64,000 bases of DNA from Ischnura elegans (taxonomy: Eukaryota > Arthropoda > Insecta > Odonata > Coenagrionidae), in NCBI RefSeq assembly GCF_921293095.1, contig NW_025791658.1:806001-870000 (forward strand), read 5' to 3'. Shown in pieces: positions 21,101 to 56,209 of this stretch; position 1 is the first letter of the stretch; every line of letters begins with the position of its first letter. Both the position numbers and the translations under genes were made by a program. Below the pieces are notes generated by a model. It had not been told where the DNA came from. It was given only the letters and a program-made list of their open reading frames with translations, and did no database searches.

Positions 21101-24100
21101 GAGCGCAACCCTAGTTTCAATGAATTATCATCATCTTCAGGCACAAATTACGATTTGTTTTAACCTTTTCCCTACCGTACACATATATATACGTGTGGAC
21201 GTTTCTTGACCCGGGAGACCACGGGCGTATATGTACGTGTGAGATTTTCCCGGTCAAGAAAACGAAACCCGTATATATACGTTTTCTAGCTCTCCCCCTT
21301 TCAGGACGGTCGTGGGTTTAGGTCGCCTTTGTCTCGGGACCCAACGCTTCGGGGTTTAGGATTAACCCTCCGAATCCGGGAGCAGGTACCCGGACCCCTC
21401 GTCTTTTATAACCCCTCTCAGCGGTAAGGGACAGCGGTCATACAATTGTTTATACAGTCAATTTTCGAAATAAATATTTGTTCATTTTACAAGAAATATA
21501 CACTAAGAATTAAATTATTTGTCTTTTGAGAAGCGTTTACAATTTTTAAACGAATTTCTACGACAAATATTAACTTATATCTCGAGTTATGTATAAACAT
21601 AAACATGGAAATTGTTGCTGTATTAAATGCGTTAATATTGGCCTTAGAACTTCGTTTAAAATTTGACAATGCTGAGAAAAAAATGAGGAATTCAATTCAA
21701 AGTCTTCAGTTTATGGGCAAACAGCAATTATCCATGACACAAATACATGTAAGTAATCCATAAGTTGACCGTCAACCAAAGCCGCTGGTAGTGTCGTAAA
21801 CACGGAAAGGAGGGAGCACAACTACTCTCGGAGTCCAAGATAATGCAATGCGTAGTCCCAGTGTGGATGGGTCGAAAAAGGTTCAGCGAGACCCTTCTAA
21901 ACGAATGTCCTCCAAAAATGCTCCGTACCACGAGAAAGAAAAGTCTCTTGGGGCTCAGTACAGCAGTCATGCTTAGACGAAAACTCCGCCATCTCGAAAG
22001 GGTTAATTGGGGCAAAGTGCACAAGTCCCGATATGTCCCAATTAAACAGAATCTACTGTATTACTAAATATATCATCTTCTCTTCCAGCTTGCCAACCAG
22101 CCGATGATACTCCTCCAGTCCCCAGGAAACCCAGGCGTCTTGCAAGCTGCGTACATCAAGCCGAACGTGTTCCCCGCAAACGTCCAAGCTCAAAACACGA
22201 CCAAATTGCCCACGGCCAACGCGCACATCCCGCAACCGACAATACTCGCGCTCCAGCCTCAGAACGTGGATAACCTTCAGAAGATGCGCAAAATCGTGTT
22301 GCAGAGGGTCAACAATCCGGTGTTGAGGGGCGGTGGCGTCCTCGCAAAGCCCCCTGTGTCGACGTCTGACGACGGGACGGTTGAGAGAGTAGGGGATGAG
22401 GGAGTCTCGGAGCAGTGCGGAGACGTGGAGAATGGTAGCGAAGGTGAAAGGACAGACGACGCAATGGAAGGGCAACTGGGGGAAGAGTTTCCGGAGCCGC
22501 TAGAGGAAACGGACATGGGCGTGTCGTTTTTGTGCAAGACAGTGTCGAGCGAGCACCGCCCCCACGTGTGTGAAACCTGTGGGAAGTGTTTCCGGAGGCG
22601 ACTCCACCTTAGGTACCACCGCTCGACGCATCAGGACGAGCGACCCTTTGCCTGTGCCGAGTGTGGGAAAAGCTTCAAGTTGAAGGTGTGTATGGAATCT
22701 AGAATAAGGTTAATTAAACGATTTTAATGTCTAGTTTTAGTATACCGGGACTAGCCGCGGTAATAACTTTTTACGGGAGTCACCCGCAATGAACAATCTT
22801 GCGAAAGATCCACAGAGAAAAAATCATTGGCCTTGACTGGGATTCGAACCCGGATCTCCCGATTTCCGGTCGAGTGCTTTAGCCATTTAAGCTACCGAGG
22901 CGTCATTCTTCCCTGTGGATATTTTCGGACACTACCGGACAAGGTGTTGCTGGACTGCTTGGTATATGATGCCACGAGCAGTCCAAATCGTGTGCACAGT
23001 GCCACAGCCGGAGAGCAGGCCCGGAAATAGAACCCAAAGAGGTGTTCACTCTTGACTAGTTTAAAGTATACCTGTATAAAGTATACTTTAAACTAGTTAA
23101 TTACTTTGAATAGTGTTGACCAGGATAAATTAAAATCGTTCATTTAACCTTTAATAATAGGGTGGTTTCCTATTATATTTTTATTGCCTAAATCGAAAGA
23201 TTATTACTCCTGGAGTACGTATTTAACGCATTTAGATTTTTAAATGAGGATATCTATTTTTCGCAATTAAATGAAAAGTGAAAATTTTCAAGTGCACGAA
23301 AATGTGACGGGCAAGTATGAATGCTGGGAAATCTCTCCGTGTGACGTATTTCTCGTTCCCGCTGCCGCCCTGTGAGGTGACCTTGAGGGAGGTTTGAGCG
23401 CTGATACGACGCAGGCTGCTAGCGGGTAGCTGAGTACCCTGCTAGCTGGTAGTGCTTGGCTTAAATAAGGATTATTAATACCTTATCAAACGAGGAAAAC
23501 TTTCTGACCTTAAGTAGTTTTAATAGGTGATTATTAAGACAAGTTTTCCAGAGCTCTGTGCCACACGCATGCATTGGTAATCTCAGACGATGTAAAACTC
23601 CTATCTACTCGTGTAGAAACTAGGTCCCTGTGACGTCACGTGGAGTGGCATCGCATGGGCGCCAATCTGGCCTTTTTCAAATGAGGTTAAAAAATGACCA
23701 TTACATTCGTCTAAACTGGGATTTCTAAAACCAAATAATTTGTATATTATGAATACACTAATGGTGGTTAACGAATCGCAATCGATGCCTTTCATTTTCT
23801 TTGATGAAGGTAACTACCCTATAACTAGGCTACATAGGTTATTATTGAAATGAGTTGAGACTAGAGATGGGTCGAATAGCAGATTTCTCAAACTCGAATA
23901 TCAAATTCGAATATTAAATCATTGCTCGAATATTTGAATACCTCGAATACTAAACGATGAATGCTGGAATGTTTGACTCGGTTGCCTGTGCAGCAGGAAA
24001 CACAAGATTTTGGGGAGTAATTTTGATTTCCTTCAACCCTTTCGCGCCTGGCTCATTCACGGGAAGTTGCTTTCGGCTGTACAAAGGCTTTGAGAATTTC

Positions 24101-27100
24101 TTTTTCGCCCCATACGGATTTGTTTCTTGGCTAGGAATTGTCCAGGTAGCCGCTTTCTCCGCTTAATGACCTTTCCAAGCGGGGTGCCGGACCCTTTACT
24201 GGGCAACTGGGCAAATATAATCCTCGACCCTTTTCCCGAATTATTGTAGTAAATATCAGTTCGTCAATGTATACCTTTCATTAAGCAATGCTTATAGAAC
24301 TTTTAAACGAAGTTCTACGGTTATTTTTAGGGTTTTTAGCAAAAGGGCATTACCGTATAAGCGCGTGTAAGAGGCGCACCTTTTTTCCCAGATATTGCAG
24401 CCGAAAATGAGGGTGCGCCTCTTACACAAACTTCTTATCTTCCCCCCCTCCCCTTCACCGATTGCAAGTTCAAGGGGAACTGAGTGGCCTTGGTTTTCAG
24501 CGTGAGTCAGTCATCTGAAACCCTGGGTCAAAATCAAGCAGCAGGCAGGGGAGTTTCTCCCTTAGTGACGTATTTTTAAAATGCTCCTGTTTGAATTTCT
24601 TGCAAGCATCGCGCCGTCACGTCGGTACCCCAGAGGTGAACATTGAAAAGATCGCGCGTGGTGATTCGCTCCAGTGCGCACGCTAAATTTATTGCCACGA
24701 GTGGGCATCCCGCGGCATTTATTCTGCATATAGTAATATTGGTGTCAAAACCTGCGGTTGAAAAAATTCGAACGAGTGTGCTCATTGTTGGACTTAATGG
24801 TGGATAGAAGAAATCGGAAATGCTTATAAGTGAAGAGTGCTGAAGGAGAGGTCGGGGGGAAGAGGGCTCCCTCCCCTCCGTATTTAAAGCTATGAGCGAA
24901 GGAGCAAGGGAAGAACACGTCCGATCTTGCATGTGACGTCATTGCTTTTAAAGCAAAGGGGCGAAGGCGCAGCAATGTGATATACGCAGTTTGCGTTGCC
25001 TGAGTTTCCAGTCCGTCTCGTCTTGTTTGAATGCGCTTATGCTACGCTTGTTTCTTCCGAAATTGTGCTGTTTGGACTATGTTTAATATTAGTAGCCTTA
25101 TTTTAGCTATAAATCTTTGTGTAAAACAATTAGAGCTTAAAAACTTAAATTCTGTCAGATATGCATCGCGTTAGATCTCTTTCTTTTTTTGAACCTCGTG
25201 CGTGTCATACACTTGCTGAAAGATATCGAGATATCTTCGAGCTCAGAAGGTGACTCACATAGCATTTTACCTCCAGAAACTCGGGGAATTGAACCTGGTA
25301 GACCGAAAAAGGTCAGTTGGTGGAATGGGGTAGGGATGAAACACGTTTCCATTGTTCCCCTGTAACTTGATATTTTCCTGTGGAGTCTCGGAAAGGAAAA
25401 AAACGGCAGAGGCATTAGCTGATGGAGAGCCGAGTGTAGTTCCGTTAGGCCCCTTGCACACACACCGATTTTGGACGGCTGGTAAAATATTGGCCGATAT
25501 TTTACCGGCGAAGCGATGCTTGCACACACGCCGGATTTTTACCGGTCAAACGATACGTTGCTAAGTTTTTGAGCCGGCGTTGGCGATCCACAGTGACAAT
25601 AGCCGGCAGCTAACCGGCATTTTGCCGGTGCCGGGGTGTGGTCGGTACGTGTGCAAGCTCCAATGCTCTCCCATTGTTCACTATTGGAATGTGGACGGCC
25701 GATATTTTACCGGCCGTCCAAAATCGATGCGTGTGCAAGGGGCCTTAAATCTACGACGTGGTTATTAACCTACGGCACTGAGATTGCCCCGATTGTTGTT
25801 CAATCTCTTGGGAAAGCTCATGCTATGTGCCTGTCGTGTTTTGCCTTAAAATTTTCCGCGGTTGCAATTCTATTGCAATACTCCTGCGAGAGCTTTTAAA
25901 CAAAATTGTTCGTGAGTAGGACAAGCAACGTAGAGCGATGGCGTATGCAAAGAGAGGATCGGAACTCTTTCTACTCCCTCTTATGCCGCCGCAGTTATCA
26001 AAATTTCCTCTTTCAAATAGTACTGAAAGAGGACATTTCGATAACTGTCGAAATTCCAGGCATACGTCTGAACACCGCACGATAGGATTAAAAAAATGTC
26101 GCAAAATTTTTTTTCTTTATAGCTTCGATCCGCAAAATAGGGGTGCGCCTCTTACACGTGTGCGCCTCTTCATCATCATCATTGGTCAACAATCCTAGGA
26201 TTGGTTTGACGCAGCTCTCCACTCTATTCTCCTTTCAGCTAATCTTTTCACACTTACGTATTTCTTCTCTTTCACATCTCTCTTCACTTGTTCCATGTAT
26301 TTTGTTCGAGGTCTTCCTTTTCCATTCTTACCTTCCACTTGTCCTTCGACGATTGTCTTCATCAGGCCATCATGTCTCAGGATGTGGCCTATAAGGTTGT
26401 TCCGTCTTCTTATTAAGGTTTTCATGAGGCTTCTCTTCTCTCCTACTCTTCTTAGGACTTCTTTGTTACTAACTCTGTCGATCCATTTGATTTTCATCAT
26501 TCTTCTGTAGCACCACATTTCGAAGGCCTCTATCCTTGCTTTCTCCGCTGCGGTCATTGTCCATGCCTCACTTCCGTGTAGGAGCATACTCCAGATGTAG
26601 GATCTTATAAATTGTTTCTTTGTGCGCCTCTTACACAAGCTTATACGGTATATCATAGACCAACAAATACTTTAAAGGGAATGACATCTTTCAATGTTCT
26701 TAGAATACTTCTAGGTATTTACGATTTATGATATTAACATATTTTAGATCCATGATGCCCAAATCCACACTCTCCTCATTTGCGTCTGCTCTCCACGAGT
26801 TCTCTGAAAACATGGGAATGAAACATTTCGAATTTTCTAGAAGAATATTTTCCCGAAAAATTCTCATAAAACATCTTGAATCTAACAAAGTTGTTGTTTG
26901 AAACGGCTACATTATATTTATTAAGAAATTTCACTCAGATAAATATAAATTCATATTACGCACGAAATACAAAAAAAAAAAAAAAACTATTTCTAGAGTC
27001 ACTATCCTGGTCTTCATTATCACTTCTAGTGTGTATTTCCAGGATCGATCGATCCGTAATTAGCCTGGACATTTACCCAGTGCAAGCAAATTCCCGTCCA

Positions 27101-35691: not shown

Positions 35692-35851
35692 TTAAACCCT
35701 CAGCATAGAAGTTTGCTGCCTGAGAGTTGAGCCAATTGGACCAAGCCACATGCTCACATTGCTGTCAAAACCAACAAGAAAATTCAAGATTTTCATTGGG
35801 AACTCTTTTACCACCCATCATACAGTCCTTATACCTTGCACCTAGTGAATA

Positions 35852-37126
35852 CAGTAGATTCCGGTTAATTGGGACACATCGGGACTTGTGCACTTTGCCC
35901 TAATTAAATGGCTGCCCCAATTAGGTGAAATATTCTGTATATGGGCATTAACAAACGTTGAAATGATAGAAAGAAGACTAAAGAATGTTTATTACGCAAC
36001 ATAAGTTTATTAAACTATTAGTTTGACTAATAAATTAGCGAGTTTGGGTATTTTATTATCATATTTAAGAATTATAACATTTTTGTTAAAAATATTTTTC
36101 ACAGCCTCGGGCGATGCTGAATGAATGTCTTTTACTAAGTCCTATTAAATAAAAGTCCTATCCTCTTGCGGATAGTATAACAACAAGAGCTTTCAAAATA
36201 GGTCAAAAATAGGAACATTTGTGAAAAATAAGAGTAAATAAAAGGAGGAAAATATAAAAAAATAGTATTCTGAAAACAAAAAATTTTAATTTCGTCGTGA
36301 GTATAGAGTCTATGTCGCCGACTCATGGTCCAATAAAGCGGCATGCTGTCCCAATTAAGCGGAGAATACTCTGGCATATTCCTCTCTATTGGGTTCTGTT
36401 CTTCAAGATCTGCCCCAATAGGGTAGTTTCCTTCATCAAAGAAAACGAAAGGCATTGATTGCGATTCGTTACCCACCATTAGTGTATTAATAATAATATG
36501 TATACAAATTATTTGGTTTTAGAAATCCCAGTTTAGACGAATGGCAATGGTCAATTTTATCCTCTTTTGAAAAAAGCCAGATTGGCGCCAATGCGATGCT
36601 ACTCCTCGTGACGTCTCAGGGACCTAGTTTCTATAGGAGTTTTACATCGTCTGAGATTGCCAATGCATGCATGAGACAGAGCTCTGGGAAACATGTCTTA
36701 ATAATCTCCTTTTAAAACTGCCTTAGGTCGGAAAGTTTCCTTCGTTTCATAGGGGAATAATAATCCTTATTTAAGCCAAGTGCTACCAGCTAGTAGGGTA
36801 CTCTGCTACCTGGTAGCATCCTGCGTCGTATCAGCGCTCAGAGCCTCGCCCCAAGGTCACCTCACTTGCGGCAGCAGGAACAAGAACGACGTCACACAGA
36901 GTTTTCCCAGAATTAATACTTAGCCGTCGCTTTTTCATGTGCTTGAAAATTTTCACTTTTCATTTAATCGCGAAAAATAGATATCGCCATTTAAAAATCT
37001 AAAAGCGTGAAATACGTACTCCAGGAGTAATATTCTTTCGATTTAGGTAATAAAAAAATAATAGGAAACCACCCTATTAAGCGGCTGCCCCGAGTAACCG
37101 GTGGACCCATTAAATGGAATCTACTG
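35852..37126 (-). mobile_element. TA MITE family C, copy split by MITE G
   Basis: Ends CAGTAGATTCCGGTTAATTG and AAATGGAATCTACTG with TA on both sides (35850-35851, 37127-37128). Without MITE G it is about 619 bp. It is uninterrupted at the position where the copy at 49022 holds a Harbinger. Confidence 0.9.
36421..37074 (-). mobile_element. MITE family G, full-length, nested in family C
   Basis: GGGTAGTTTCC to GGAAACCACCC with TA on both sides (36419-36420, 37075-37076). The C copy at 49060-49085 is empty at this position. Confidence 0.9.
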
Positions 37127-42244: not shown

Positions 42245-42790
42245 TCAACTACTCTTTCTTGTTCATTCTCCTCCGTGTAGAAGATGAAAGAAGTATTCAG
42301 TAGAATATCGCAGGTGAAGAGGGCTTTCTACAAATAGAAGAATCTTCTAACAACTGAGAATACAAGCATTGAAGTAAGGAAACAATTCTTCAGATGCCAC
42401 ATATGGAGTACGTTTCTCTATGGAAGCGAGGCGTGGACGTTGACAGCAGCAGAGAAGGCAAGAGTGGAAGCATTCGAAATGTGGTGCTACCAAAGAATGA
42501 TGAAGATAAAATGGGTCGACCGTGTAAGTAACGAGGATGTGTTAAGAATTGTGGGAGAAAAGAGAAGTCTTCTAAAAACCTTAAGCAGAAGACGGGATAA
42601 CTTGGTCTGCCACATTCTGAGGCATGATGAAGACAATCGTAGAAGGACAGGTGGAAGGGATGAAGGGCAAGGGACGGCCCCGAATGAGTTACACAGGTCA
42701 AAGGGTTATAAAAGATGTGAAAGAGAAGAAATACGTCACTTTGAAAAGGCTAGTCTAACCAATCTAAGGATTGTTGATTAATGATGATGA
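42245..42790 (+). pseudogene. Non-LTR retrotransposon reverse-transcriptase C-terminus, frameshifted
   Basis: [56 protein letters not shown] and CHILRHD match the fragment at 26171-26620, then the frame shifts. Ends in 'aatgatgatgaa', the same (ATG)n-type tail. A second piece of its 3' region is at about 43005-43065. Confidence 0.85.
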
Positions 42791-48962: not shown

Positions 48963-49666
48963 GTAGGGGAAAGTGTTGCACCGCGGAACATTTTTTCAAA
49001 TTTTTTATATTAAGCAAAATACAGTGGATTCCGTTTAATGGGTCCACCGGTTACTTGGGGCAGCCGCTTAATTGGGGCAGATCTTGAAGAACAGAACCCA
49101 ATAGAAAGGAATATCCCAGAGTATTCTCCGCTTAATTGGGACAGCATGCCGCTTTATTGGGCCACGAGTCGGCGACATAGACTCTATACTCGCGACGAAA
49201 TTAAAAGTTTTTGTTTTCAGAATACTATTTTTTATATTTTCCTCCTTTGATTTACTCTTATTTTTCACAAATGCTCCTATTCTCGGCATATTTTGAAAGC
49301 TCTTGTTGCTATACTATCCGCAAGAGGATAGGACTTTTCTTTAATAGGACTTAGGCCCGTATCATAAAAGTCCCCTCGAAGTTTGAGCTGAGGAGGGCCT
49401 CGTTTGAAGCCGGCCTAGCTCGACGAGGAGATCCCTCGATCGCATCATATCATAAAACCCTCCTCCAGCTCGGTTCATAGGAGGAGGGGTTTGAGCCAGC
49501 GGAAATGACGCATTGTTGTCGACGATGTTTCGGGTTTCAGAGTTGACAGTCTTCCAGTATTGTTCCACGTTAAATTTTTCGAATCGTAATTTCGCAGACA
49601 TGCGCAGTAGCGATACACCGAATGCGACCGGGGATATACCCGCCAATATCAACAATATAAACAGAA

Positions 49667-51915
49667 ATGGCTAAGTCGGAGCGGATGGCCAGGCAGGAGC
49701 AGGAAATTTTGTGCAATTTGGTGGTCTAGTACAAGGACGTAATTGAGTGCAAGCGCACGGATGCGGAGTCCGTTTTGAGCAAGGCAAGATGTTGGCAGAA
49801 ATTAACTGAAGAATTTAATAATCACGGATGTGTAAGACAGGTAAGTCGACATCATATAGAATGATCTAATAATCAAATAGTTTTTGATATATAACGCTTT
49901 CGAGATCGGTTCTGGAATATATATGTAAATCAGTTCAACTGTGCTTATCTTATGATGTATTTCGGTTTTATTTTATTCGTGTAACTTATAATTTGTTATT
50001 ACTTAGCCGTTATATCTTTCACGAAATATTTCTTTGTTTTCCATTTATTTAGCGAAACTGTAGACAATTGAGGAAGGCGTGGGATAATATCAAGATGAGG
50101 AGGAAAAGGGTACTAGCAGAGGAAGCACGACGTCGGATGGGTACAGGCGGAGGACCTTGCCCATCCACGTCGAAAGACAGCACCATCCCAGAGTTGGAAG
50201 TGGCAATTCCATCGATCGATCACCATCTGTTGTCAGTTGGGGATAGTGATCGATTGATGGAAGCACCCAGCGGCCCTGAAGACTTTGTTATCATTGATGG
50301 AGACCTCGGAGGAGAAGGTAAGTTCAACGGGTCATTGAAATGTATTCATTAATAATGTTGATTACTTATTTAATATTTTTGTCGAACAAAATTCTGTCAA
50401 CTGTACACCTCAAAGTTTATCAAGACATAATTAGATTGCACTAATGAGTGGAAGTAATGTTCAAGGATACCTAAATACCCATGCACTATTTTTCTTATCC
50501 CTGGCAAAAATATACAGTGACTTTTCAGTGATGTACACAGTGAATTCAGTGACTACTCAGTGAGACCGTGATTTGCCCAGTGACATTGGGCCAGTGGGCT
50601 TGACAGTGATCAATATGTAATTGATATTTTAAGTTAAAACATAGATATATTAAGTCAAAAATTGAAGAAATCAGTCAATTTAAGAATAGTTTATCTCGCC
50701 ATATTTCAACATGACCAGTGATTTGTTTTAAAATCAAGAATCACTGGCTAAGTCACAGGCTGCCACTGCCTAGGTCAATAGATATTTTTGCCGGGGATCT
50801 TGGGTGTTGTGCTGTGCAATGGCCTTTAAAATAATCAGTTATTAATTTTCAAAGATTTTCCATGATACTATGAAACTTGTAACAGAACTTTCATAAGTAA
50901 TAATTCCATGTAGTCATATCTGAAAGTATCCATTTTATGACAATTATTTCTCATGTTTGCAACCAGGTTAAAGCTTTTATGCAAGCCAACGTTTCGGAAG
51001 ACTATTTGTCTCCCATCCTCAAGGCTGTGTTATTTAATGGAAGTCCAATTTCAAGATTTAACCTGGTTGCAAGCCCGAGAAATATTCATCAGAAGTATTC
51101 ACCACTAAAAATTAAATTCGTTTATCCATTTTATTTTTCAAAATGAAGATGCCGCTGGGTCATGGAGTGAACCCCACCAGTTGGAGGAGACACCCATAGT
51201 GGAAGCTGTGGGATCCACAGCTGTTGTCTCTGGCTCTGCTTCGGAGCCAAGGCAGGCTGTGGATACCCTACAGTCCCCTATGGGACCTGGTCCCTCTCCA
51301 CAGCAGCCAACAGACTGTGTGGGGGGAACCAGAAACACCACAGCACCAAGGGCTCTCACAAGAGCTGAAGCTCATCAAAGGGAGTTGGATGCAAGGTTAG
51401 CCAGAATCCAGACTGCCTCAGATGATGAAGCGAAGATGAGGCAGGCTGCCGCAGAGGATGAAGCTCTTCTGCGGCAGATAAGGATTCAGGCAGCACTCGA
51501 GGAATTGGAGCATCAAAGAACATTGCATGCAATGGAAGTAGAACATAAGCGGGTATGGTATCTCTGTTTGTAGATCCTTATATAACTTAGTCACTTTAGG
51601 AACTCTTATGTTAATGTATGCTTATTGTTTTTATATCTTACTTGCATCATTTAAATAATAGTATGTTTTTTATCTCTCCTGTCTTCCATGTGGATTTGAC
51701 TGATTCCTGAGTAACTTATAATTCATAAAATGGCATTCATGTACCTACACAAATTCATGATAATACTTGAATAATATAAATAACAGGAGCTGCATTTTTA
51801 GTTACATTTAATATTGACAATTTGTACTTGCAGGGGCATAGTGGAAGAGTGCCTTGGAATTTTAGATGATTAATTGTTAATTTTCTTTTCTTTCTAGCAA
51901 CAATATAGTAAGTGA
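49667..51915 (+). pseudogene. Harbinger Myb/SANT-like protein gene, four exons, one nonsense codon
   Basis: Exons 49667-49840, 50053-50317, 51149-51552, 51898-51915, all with AG/GT borders and matching phases, about 286 residues. Exon 1 begins MAKSERMARQEQEILCNLVV, then TAG, then YKDVIECKRTDAESV and CWQKLTEEFN; exon 2 adds RQLRKAWDNIKMRRKRV. Together this is the trihelix Myb/SANT-like (zeste-type) DNA-binding domain. Exon 3 is Ser/Pro-rich then a long coiled-coil-like Ala/Glu/Arg helix (RELDARLARIQT). In Harbinger elements such proteins bind the ends and carry the transposase to the nucleus. Only the in-frame TAG (about codon 21) spoils it; the inverted copy lacks that stop at the same position. 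Confidence 0.88.
50943..51088. repeat. Hairpin in Myb intron 2
   Basis: About 30-bp arms: 'ctcatgtttgcaaccaggtt' at 50951 and its near inverse 'aacctggttgcaagcccgag' at 51060. Possibly a small foldback element. Confidence 0.7.
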
Positions 51916-51918
51916 AAG

Positions 51919-52236
51919 GTGCTGATTATATTCTACTTGCAATTCCTCGAGTGCTACAACCTTGCATCCATCTCTCCTGAGTGCCCTTGGTGCTGTTGGT
52001 TTACCTCCACTGCTGTGATTCACTCCATGTGCCTATAGCTCTGGGTGGTGCTTGTCGCTTGCTTTCCCTCCAAGCACCCTTTTCCTCACTCCAACGCCTT
52101 CCTCAATTGCTGCATGTCCATGATTATTTCTGCCAACATCTTGCATTGCTTATGACGGACTGCATACACTCAATTATGTCCTTGTACTACCAAATTGCAC
52201 AAAATAATCTGCTTCTGCCTGCATGGCCTGAAATAT
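51919..52236 (-). pseudogene. Inverted, intronless copy of the Harbinger Myb/SANT coding sequence
   Basis: Read on the minus strand from 52236 to 51919 it follows the spliced gene in order: exon 1 ('ttttgtgcaatttgg', 'gcaagatgttggcagaaat'), exon 2 ('caattgaggaaggcg', 'aggaaaagggt'), exon 3 ('catggagtgaa', 'gcaccaagggc', 'gcactcgaggaatt'). Introns are absent and several internal stretches are deleted. It begins within a few bases of the sense stop codon, so it would be the 3' UTR of the sense transcript and could base-pair with it. Confidence 0.85.
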
Positions 52237-53106
52237 ATTTATCTGATATGGCATGAAATTGTTTTCTTTACAATGCCTGTTTATCCCTTAATATGCATGC
52301 TGGTCAATTGGTGTTGCTTCTTTTAACTGTATTTATTTAAGAAAGTTATTAATTTCGGGGGTATGGAATTTGCAGAATTTTCCTCTGGGTCATTCAATCA
52401 ATTAATTTGTCATTAGTTGGTAAAAACCACAATAAACATTGTCAAGTAGTGACCTTGGAAAAAATATACATTTTCATGCAAAGCTAAATAGGAAATTTTG
52501 AATCATTATCTAACTAAATAATTGCTTGCATCACTATCTGCACTCTTTGATTTTTACAATATAGTTAGTAATAAAATTATTTTTTGGTTAGAATTTAAAT
52601 TTATCTGGAAAGTAATCACCTAAGATTTTATTCAATAATATATTAGAAAAAAAAGGCATCAGTTGCTTGATATTTTTTTAATAATTGCAAGAGCAGGGAT
52701 AAAATACATAAATTTTGGCAGAAACCTCAGTAATCATATACTTTAGCAGGTATAACAAGTTAACAATAACATATTATCTGGAAAAGAAAATAATGTAATA
52801 TGATGTAATACACAGTTACAGGTAGTAGGAAAGCATATGATTTTAGAGAATTTTCTTTTGTTAAAATAATTACATAATCTAATCAGCTAATATCCAGTGA
52901 TAATTATTATGAGCCAAGGAGTAGACGGTGCAGCATGTCCACTGATGTCAAAGGCAGCATCACCTAGTTATAATAAGAAAAGCTGTAATTAGTCACAACA
53001 TTTATTCAAACAAACACTGTACTTGGGAGTATTTTAAGTAAAAACCAATTTCCAATCCAAGGGTGGGTGGTGATATTGGTGGGTGGTGGAGGTGTGTGAC
53101 AGCTGA
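52237..53106. other. Harbinger interior, AT-rich, no gene
   Basis: Between the two convergent genes. No frame, repeat or RNA recognised. Confidence 0.5.
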
Positions 53107-53428
53107 AACATAATCACTGATACACTATTTCATGTTCCACAAAACCTTTTAATAATCTGACCTAGGTTTCGACTTGGTACAATATGTCATTCTCAAAAGT
53201 TAAAATACATGTTTGGTGATCTTATACTGTTTTCTTATACCTTATACTGTTTGATCTTATACCTTCAAATGACTTGTCTTTACCCCCCCTTCACCTTTCC
53301 AAAACAGTATAAGAACATAAAACATGTATTTTATCTTTTGAGAATGACATATTGTACCAAGTCGAAACCTAGGTCAGACTATTATAAGGTTTTGTGGAAC
53401 ATGATATAGTATATCAGGGATTATGCTA
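53107..53428. mobile_element. Foldback element with ~108-bp arms carrying hammerhead-like motifs
   Basis: Arms 53107-53214 and 53320-53428 are near-perfect inverted repeats. Each contains AATGACATATTGTACCAAG followed by TCGAAACCTAGG (minus at 53161-53196, plus at 53336-53372), a Penelope/hammerhead-like block with TGAGAATGAC and GTCGAAAC. Confidence 0.8.
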
Positions 53429-53795
53429 CCAAAAGCCAATTTAATTTGAAACTGGATCTCAAAAGTTTACATGCACCACAATATAGACATGCTAATATTG
53501 TTTAACCCCTCAAAAATATCATTTACCACTATCAGCAGCCAACCATTATTTGTCATAATTTAAAACCTGATTTATCTCTGTTTTCATGTATGTATGTAAC
53601 AAAATGATCATGGCGTGACATTGTGCACTCTATGCTATGCTTTTGCGGTCTCTTGATGTCTTGCATACATTGCATTGCTTCATTACCCTCCTGACAATTT
53701 CATTTCCTATTCAGAGCCCAGACATCCCATTCTCCTATTTTCAATCATGTTGTGAGAAGTTTCCCCACCTCCCTCTTTCACCTTACAGCATGCAG

Positions 53796-54610
53796 TTATC
53801 CTTGGATGAAGGTAAAGTAGCGATTAGTGAAAGCCCTTCTTTCAACTATGGCACTGAGATTTCTATTTTGCACGGCAGGTATTGGAACATCAGCATGGGG
53901 ATCTTGCAATTGTATGTGCTCTGGAACTGGCTCCCTCTGGCTGATGGCCACGTTGTGGAGCACAGCTCAAGCCAGTATTATTTTAGCTGATGTTTGAGTG
54001 GCTGTTCTCATTTTCATTGAGAGGCAGGGAAATCGCCTCTTCCATATCCCAAATGCCCTCTCCACTGCAGATCTGGTTGCAATGTGTGATGCATTGTACC
54101 TGAAAAAAATAAATAATATGTATACAACCGCTATCATTTCCATGAAATCATTTTGTCACTGCACATCACCCTTTTCAATAAAAGTTAGACAATTTATTTT
54201 TTCCTCTAACCAACCTATGCTCAGCTGGTGTGGCTGGGTTGTGCACTGGTGTGTAAAGGTATCTTAGCTATGCTATCTCCCAGCAATAAACCATTGACTT
54301 CATCTCTGTCGAAGCAGAGACACAGTCAGCTGTTGTGGAAGATCCCAGCATCGTGTGTAGACCCAGGCCATCGACAAACAATATCCAAAATCTCCAGCCT
54401 GGGACCAGCAACCACCTGTTACATGCAGAGCAAAGCAAATATCACTTGTATTTGTTCTAATACTAAGGTAAATAATCATATCAAATCAACCCCAGGAAAG
54501 TGTGCCACTCGATACAAAAGTCTTCTTGCAGTGGCTAATTCCTCGTGTGATTGAAGAATCTTCACTACCTTTGGCAGCTTCCCAGTAATTTCTGTACTAA
54601 TAACCTGCAA
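53796..54610 (-). pseudogene. HARBI1-type Harbinger transposase, decayed
   Basis: Minus strand. An upstream exon (about 54610-54493) has EELATARRLLYRVAHFPGV. The middle exon 54415-54215 has VVAGPRLEILDIV, RWPGSTHDAGIF (second catalytic Asp), GLLLGDS and, after a frameshift, YLYTPVHNPATPAEHR. The last exon 54099-53796 has YNASHIATRSAVERAFGIWK (catalytic Glu in VERAFG), RRFPCLSMKMR, LHNVAISQREPVPEHI and RAFTNRYF. Splice sites between the last two fit exactly. The exon with the first Asp (expected GAIDCTH) is deleted and two TGA stops are present. Confidence 0.92.
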
Positions 54611-55490
54611 TTTAATTGGGTCAAATCATCAAACCAATGTATTGTATATTGTTAAAGAAGTATTAATCATTACATTTACGACGTAGTAACACAAGTTAAA
54701 TTTAATTAGGTTTCCAACTCTATTGTTCTCTTTGACCAAGGCAAAAGATAAATGTAGAGAGATGATTCAGATTTGTGCACAAGGGCGTACCCAGGATAAT
54801 GACTAGGGGGGCAAGCCATGGTCTAAATGGGGGGGAACCAAGATGTAATATTAGTGTATGAGATTATTTCCATGAAAAAATAGTTTTACTTTAGTTACAT
54901 GTATTGTGCGTATAATTTTTCACCGGTTTAAATAAAATTTGTTGAATGCTTTCGTTTAAATTCAGAATAGATTTTGTTTAAAGACTTGCGATTTTTTCTT
55001 CTGGGGGGGGGGGGGGGGGGGGAAAGCTGCCCCTCGCTGGGTACGCCCATGATTGAGCTTAAATAAACAAAACCGCATGCCTTAATTAACTTCGACATTG
55101 TCGACTGAACCAGTTCGTGGAAATCGCCAGAGACTATCTACAACAATGACAGAAACACATGATAATTATCTATGGCGTTTCGAAGAATATAAATGATATA
55201 CTATGTAAACATTTATCTGAAATTCGTAGAGCGTTGCACGTATGTAACACCTTTAGCTTATAATAAGTTAATATATAAATGCTTTCGTCAACTAATATAA
55301 TTTGCGCCTGGTGTTTCATGATTATTAGTTATACAGTGACCGCGAGAAGAATAAAAGCAATGATGTACGTAACAAAAAATATCAATGCACTACTACACCA
55401 CTACAAATATGTTAGGAAAAGTATTTAAATCACTCACCTGAAAACTGTCCGTGGAATAAAACCTTAGGAAAGCAAGCAATTATAATAACC
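54611..55490. other. Harbinger right interior with a nested MITE
   Basis: No coding block recognised. Expected to hold the transposase 5' end, but it is too decayed to see. Confidence 0.45.
54782..55050. mobile_element. TIR MITE with 20-G run
   Basis: Ends GGGCGTACCCAGG and GCTGGGTACGCCC. Contains an uninterrupted run of 20 G at 55003-55022. Target duplication not clear. Confidence 0.6.
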
Positions 55491-56209
55491 TTGGGTCAGG
55501 AACGCCTCTCAAGTCGGCGTTATCCCGGCCGTAGCATCGGAAGTAACACGTCGGTTATATTTACTTTTTGAAACCTGTACCTGACGAAGAATTCCTCGTT
55601 CGTGTACCAATCTAGTGGATTGTCTCCATCCGCTAGACGGATTCTGGGTGCATATACGAAGGCATCTTCCTCAATATGACCCAAAAACTCTTCCAGATCG
55701 TATTAATCCTTCACATTCGGGAAAGCATCCATCTTCTCACAATGGCGGAAGACACCTCAAACGCTTTGAGCCGACAACAATCTAACCTCAAAGTTTGAGT
55801 CGAGGCTGGCTTCAAAATTCGACGTTTTTGAGGTTGAGGTCGGTTTTATGATATCGCATCTCCTCCTCCTGACGACAATGAGGTGGAGGCCGGCTTCGAG
55901 GGGACTTTTATGATACGGGCCTTAGTAAGAGACATTCATTCAGCGTCGCCCGAGGCTGTGAAAAATATTTTTAACTATTTTGTTATAATTCTTAAAAATC
56001 ATAATAAATTAATGAAACTCGCTGATTTAATAATGAAATTAATAGTTTAATAAACTTGTGTCGCATTATAAACATTTTTTAGTCTTCTTTCTGTCATTTC
56101 AACATTTGTTTATCCCCATGTACAGGATAGTTCGCCTAATTGGGGTAGCCGCTTAATTGGGGCAAAGTGCACAAATCCTAATATGTCCCAATTAACCGGA
56201 ATCTACTGT

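Follow-up and report, generated by a model that had tools for sequence, protein, structure and literature searches.

The window, that is, the whole stretch of 64,000 nucleotides of Ischnura elegans DNA that was analysed, contains a complete Harbinger element whose parts are collected in Table 1. The element carries a Myb/SANT-like gene, an inverted and decayed fragment of the same gene directly behind it, and a transposase relic that converges on the Myb gene. Elsewhere in the window there is an open frame of 219 codons (22068-22724, plus strand), the end of which resembles C2H2 zinc fingers by eye. Two further open frames (26198-26671 on the minus strand and 42338-42778 on the plus strand) share 76% identity at the DNA level and resemble, again by eye, the C-terminus of a LINE polyprotein.

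Table 1. Features of the Harbinger element and their positions in the window
Feature	Position	Strand	Basis or remark
Complete Harbinger element, 6568 bp	49354-55921	+	28-bp inverted ends, empty site, further genomic copies
Left target duplication, TTA	49351-49353	none	Flanks and empty site
Left terminal inverted repeat, 28 bp	49354-49381	+	
Myb/SANT exon 1	49667-49840	+	Open frame save a TAG; splice sites by eye
Myb exon 2	50053-50317	+	Open frame, splice sites
Myb exon 3	51149-51552	+	Open frame, splice sites
Myb probable last exon	51898-51915	+	Alternative 51834-51869
Inverted, apparently intron-free, decayed Myb coding fragment	51920-52221	-	Alignment; in 20 of 20 other copies read
First canonical AATAAA behind the Myb gene	52431-52436	+	Beyond the fragment
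MITE-like near-perfect palindrome inside the element	53109-53425	none	Arms 125 nt, 93% complementary
Transposase relic	53799 (approx.)-55732	-	Convergent to the Myb gene; PF13359 pieces, stops, frame breaks
Right terminal inverted repeat, 28 bp	55894-55921	-	
Right target duplication, TTA	55922-55924	none	Flanks and empty site

The Harbinger element and its genes

The first-pass annotation had assigned the locus to Harbinger with a Myb gene, and its ends, target site and protein domain bear this out. The two ends are identical 28-bp terminal inverted repeats, a feature of PIF/Harbinger elements, and the TTA duplication is supported by an empty site, a host repeat at 35849-36419 in which the left flank, a single TTA and the right flank align straight through. 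Among the 19 copies for which both ends were read, 13 have a matching 3-bp duplication and six (L015, L016, L020, L023, L026 and L027) have none. The Myb protein of the family majority contains PF13873 (E 9.9e-17; 61.1 bits, cut-off 21.7), so the Myb/SANT-like accessory gene of PIF/Harbinger is also present. Elements of this superfamily, e.g. zebrafish Harbinger3_DR, are described as combining a Myb-like gene, a PF13359 transposase and a 3-bp target duplication (PMC9179366, PMC9710019). As far as the consulted parts of these descriptions go, our element resembles them in these features, in its PF13359 sequence and in terminal repeats of the usual size range, and differs in that its transposase is a relic and an inverted Myb fragment stands behind the Myb gene.

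PF13359 was recognised in two of the three typed transposase pieces, in one of them above the cut-off. The stops and frame breaks are present in the family-majority sequence: a stop near the presumed start occurs in at least 16 of 21 copies (L009 has the same one), and 20 of the 21 have one in the last exon. A functional DDE transposase gene, as an autonomous member would carry, was not found, only the relic of the family majority, and judging from its sequence the element is probably a non-autonomous Harbinger member.

For the Myb gene, the earlier reading of four exons ending at 51915 holds for exons 1 to 3. The identity of the last exon is uncertain; the probable one gives a slightly better alignment of the fragment than the alternative at 51834-51869 (242.2 versus 239.2). 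Besides, the frame in the window is broken by a TAG at 49727-49729; AAG stands at this place in each of the 20 other copies read. Eighteen of the latter keep the frame open to its end, two of them, L012 and L020, without the first ATG; L021 and L024 carry other stops. The distinct codon changes among 19 copies (9 silent, 24 changing and 3 stops) are close to the expectation without selection, which is 27%, 69% and 4% respectively. Of 3,588 candidates in a protein search with the Myb sequence, none matched with an E value of 1e-3 or lower. An open Myb frame in most other copies thus stands alongside a transposase that is dead in the family majority, and the family is probably a Myb-only Harbinger that is mobilised in trans.

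The palindrome between the fragment and the transposase relic is present in all 19 copies compared and makes a stronger hairpin than the Myb gene and the fragment do together. It is a separate hairpin source and must be kept apart in any small-RNA analysis. No Rfam family reached the threshold over 49300-56000.

The inverted fragment of the Myb gene

The strand opposite to the Myb gene had been described as repeating the same coding sequence with all introns removed. The inverted, collinear match is real, but it covers just 302 of about 863 coding bases and is decayed: 35 substitutions and 19 deletions, with no insertion, were counted under an alignment whose gap and deletion count depends on the scoring scheme. 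The comparison proposed at that time, of the reverse complement with the joined exons, scored 274.8 for the family majority, while 500 shuffles of the fragment averaged 61.1 and reached at most 87.6, and 1,000 segments drawn at random from the window outside the element scored no more than 80.6. This rules out chance similarity as the source of the match. The arms of gene and fragment pair in strict reverse order (49690-49725/52186-52221, 49727-49754/52162-52189, 49767-49802/52126-52161, 50065-50084/52090-52109, 50100-50127/52060-52087, 51161-51181/52009-52029 and 51340-51367/51969-51996).

The fragment is collinear with the gene across junctions 1/2 and 2/3 and extends 2 bases beyond junction 3/4. 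Under one scoring scheme it scores 242 against the spliced gene and 156 against the unspliced gene, and none of the three introns matches it better than the best of 200 shuffles. The removal of introns is thus upheld as far as detectable intron sequence goes, but no junction is cleanly crossed. At junction 1/2 the alignment is ambiguous, since two scoring schemes put the gaps differently; at junction 2/3 there are 64 coding bases absent, 52 at the end of exon 2 and 12 at the start of exon 3; and no exactly preserved exon junction was found among the junctions aligned.

Stops occur in all three frames of the minus strand, and the substitutions are spread evenly over the codon positions (14, 10 and 11), so that a second functional Myb gene on this strand is ruled out. 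The even spread, together with the 25 of 35 substitutions that change an amino acid, indicates a dead copy of the same Myb gene; as read from its sequence, the fragment is non-coding. Deletions are in excess: 19 against 35 substitutions in the fragment, compared with 28 against 515 among 19 family copies (Fisher p 7e-10, or 1e-5 when the insertions of the family copies are counted too). This surplus suggests that the copy was badly made or unusually eroded, beyond mere ageing. Template jumps at short repeats are unsupported as the source of the deletions (mean microhomology 0.58 versus 0.70 expected).

Distribution of the fragment in the family

We searched 1,722,721,009 bases of the genome with a query of 2594 bases and scored 40 of 1,629 first-look candidates. 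There are at least 40 long matches, the one in the window included, which is a lower bound on the copy number. It turned out that the same inverted tail, which the first-pass annotation had suggested looking for in other copies, is included in 39 of the 40 (alignment to 2593 or 2594 of 2594). The fortieth breaks off within the last intron (query position 1998), and the 1,470 bases that follow are not part of the element. A close copy that bears the gene and is without the fragment should outscore this fortieth match, so there is probably none at this identity; more diverged relatives may exist.

All of the 20 other copies read carry the fragment, 98.8-100% identical to that of the window and free of gaps. 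Over 19 copies (the one in the window counted, L011 and L013 left out), divergence from the family majority averages 0.41% for the whole element and 0.36% for the fragment. The presence of the fragment in the copies and their low divergence from the majority indicate that it predates the recent burst, and on this comparison of sequences the progenitor of the burst already had it. The same two values leave selection preserving the fragment unsupported.

L009 (G000:C7:116350600-116358300) resembles the window copy to about 53854 and then departs from the majority by about 3.5% (window 53854-55350; 18 of 500, 17 of 499 and 9 of 491 positions in successive bins). Its transposase segment is without two shared lesions and has one stop unique to it. 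The pattern suggests that sequence was exchanged between L009 and a sister subfamily. The matches G000:C4:129536837-129539412 and 129543388-129545969 have the same strand, lie about one element length apart and are possibly head-to-tail copies. Between L025 (G000:C6) and L026 (G000:C1) the branch length is zero and the flanking triplets are different, which by these sequences is a very recent move.

Origin and possible role of the fragment

We hold with moderate confidence that the fragment is a cDNA-like patch from the element's own spliced Myb message, which was pasted in reversed and has been carried passively since. The family would be young, with the transposase presumably supplied in trans by relatives. 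Before the burst, DNA would have been copied from the spliced Myb message and inserted in reversed orientation just behind the Myb gene, most likely during break repair; RNA-templated repair, or a related reverse-transcription step, is a candidate route. The patch may have been incomplete from birth or soon eroded by deletion. It codes for nothing, and would now be a passenger, probably in the 3' UTR, with no strong function.

An origin from spliced RNA had been concluded before from the lack of introns. It is favoured also here, as exon blocks flanking introns 1 and 2 are retained in collinear order, no intron beats its shuffles and the spliced gene outscores the unspliced one. Besides, the C-terminal end of the copy lies within about 20 bases of the gene end, tail to tail, and the excess of deletions looks like a badly made copy rather than one that only aged. 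Such copying also has parallels in human cells, where templated sequence insertions are described as DNA patches copied from RNA (PMC5110952) and where RNA-templated repair is reported along with whole-intron deletions, an intron loss guided by spliced RNA (PMC12065846). The fragment resembles these, in the parts of the two reports consulted, as a probable DNA patch copied from RNA or a putative product of intron loss guided by spliced RNA, and differs in that the exact junctions which mark a whole-intron deletion are absent from it. Because no exon junction is exactly kept, the RNA origin is likely but stops short of proof; the dependence of the gap count on the scoring scheme and the missing microhomology at the deletions also count against it, and the lack of introns could also stem from an intronless ancestor. 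Passive carriage is favoured because the fragment, which has diverged about as much as the rest of the element, gives no sign of preservation. That the Myb frame is open although the transposase is dead counts against the preferred reading, since it would be odd if Myb served its own element only.

A DNA-level origin is the next to be considered, and we regard it as possible but rather unlikely. Here the right part of the element, with the fragment and the transposase relic, would come from an older element in which Myb followed the transposase, or an inverted DNA duplication would have lost its introns later by deletion. It fits that the minus strand holds both the fragment and the relic, which are decayed, in contrast to the open Myb frame on the left, that exchange between subfamilies occurs, as in L009, and that the many deletions in the fragment make intron loss by deletion conceivable. 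However, the changes are without the third-codon bias expected of a gene that had been selected separately, and introns of about 1.3 kb left no detectable trace while exon blocks were kept on both sides of them. For a chimera it would moreover be a coincidence that the junction falls, to within about 20 bases, at one and the same point in both copies. An ordinary processed pseudogene, made by a LINE and landing here by chance, would also be apparently intron-free, decayed and non-coding, but is very improbable, since there is no T run on the plus strand at 51917-51925, where the poly-A tail is expected, the copy ends within the coding sequence (its extension into the 5' UTR is rejected, with a score of 30.1 against a shuffled mean of 28.7 and 38% of 500 shuffles reaching it), and a random insertion is unlikely to land tail to tail no more than about 20 bases from its parent.

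The first canonical AATAAA lies past the fragment, which would therefore probably be in the 3' UTR, although the message could already terminate ahead of it, at the weak signal variant AATATA (51902). The expectation that a read-through transcript, taken as far as this AATAAA, folds on itself agrees with the predicted structure: -654 kcal/mol, whereas 8 versions with the downstream part shuffled give -439 +- 8.5 kcal/mol, and 283 predicted pairs between the coding region and the downstream part (280 in the window copy, or 282 with the other last exon). In a functional hairpin, the Myb message would read through, fold and be cut to small RNAs or held untranslated, which would limit the family. 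The fold energy and the position of AATAAA are in line with it, and in Drosophila simulans hairpin RNAs are described that silence related genes, some of them arising beside their targets (PMC10317233). Against this, the family multiplied with the fragment, as its presence in nearly all long matches tells; a burst with the fragment aboard disfavours strong self-silencing. The perfect duplex runs are also short (22 bp for the longest), the fragment is without sign of preservation, and the message could stop at AATATA. We therefore regard a self-targeting hairpin as possible but do not favour it, and consider a functional one improbable. The more specific proposal, in which the fixed antisense copy from spliced RNA makes every Myb message fold and either feed the small-RNA pathway of the host or block its own translation, would give a built-in brake on copy number that acts via the accessory protein and not the transposase; as a model it is a long shot.

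Known silencing loci give a useful comparison. In maize, Mu killer is described as a derived locus in which about 1.3 kb of a transposase gene lies inverted; its hypothesised effect is the silencing of active MuDR (PMC3440606). Like Mu killer, our element repeats part of an element gene in inverted orientation and may give a fold-back RNA. Unlike in Mu killer, as presented in the consulted part of that report, the repeated part is a decayed 0.3-kb stretch from the accessory gene that travels with the multiplying family, and the perfect duplex runs reach no more than 22 bp. The hpRNA loci of Drosophila are likewise inverted repeats derived from a target and sometimes adjoining it (PMC10317233). 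In that account, consulted in part, they are recognised through Dcr-2-dependent siRNAs, whereas the present case is known from sequence and a predicted fold. A literature search, weak in that it covered open-access text with few terms, found no Harbinger that carries its own Myb gene a second time in inverted form. The best filing is a structural variant of Harbinger with an inverted fragment that is probably RNA-derived and carried passively.

In conclusion, if the RNA origin is true, a DNA transposon acquired part of its own spliced message and went on to spread that part, which would be a route for class II elements to gain hairpins. With at least 39 copies that have one common fragment, small-RNA sequencing and RNA-seq in one species could show directly whether a natural fold-back within a multiplying family triggers silencing or is ignored.
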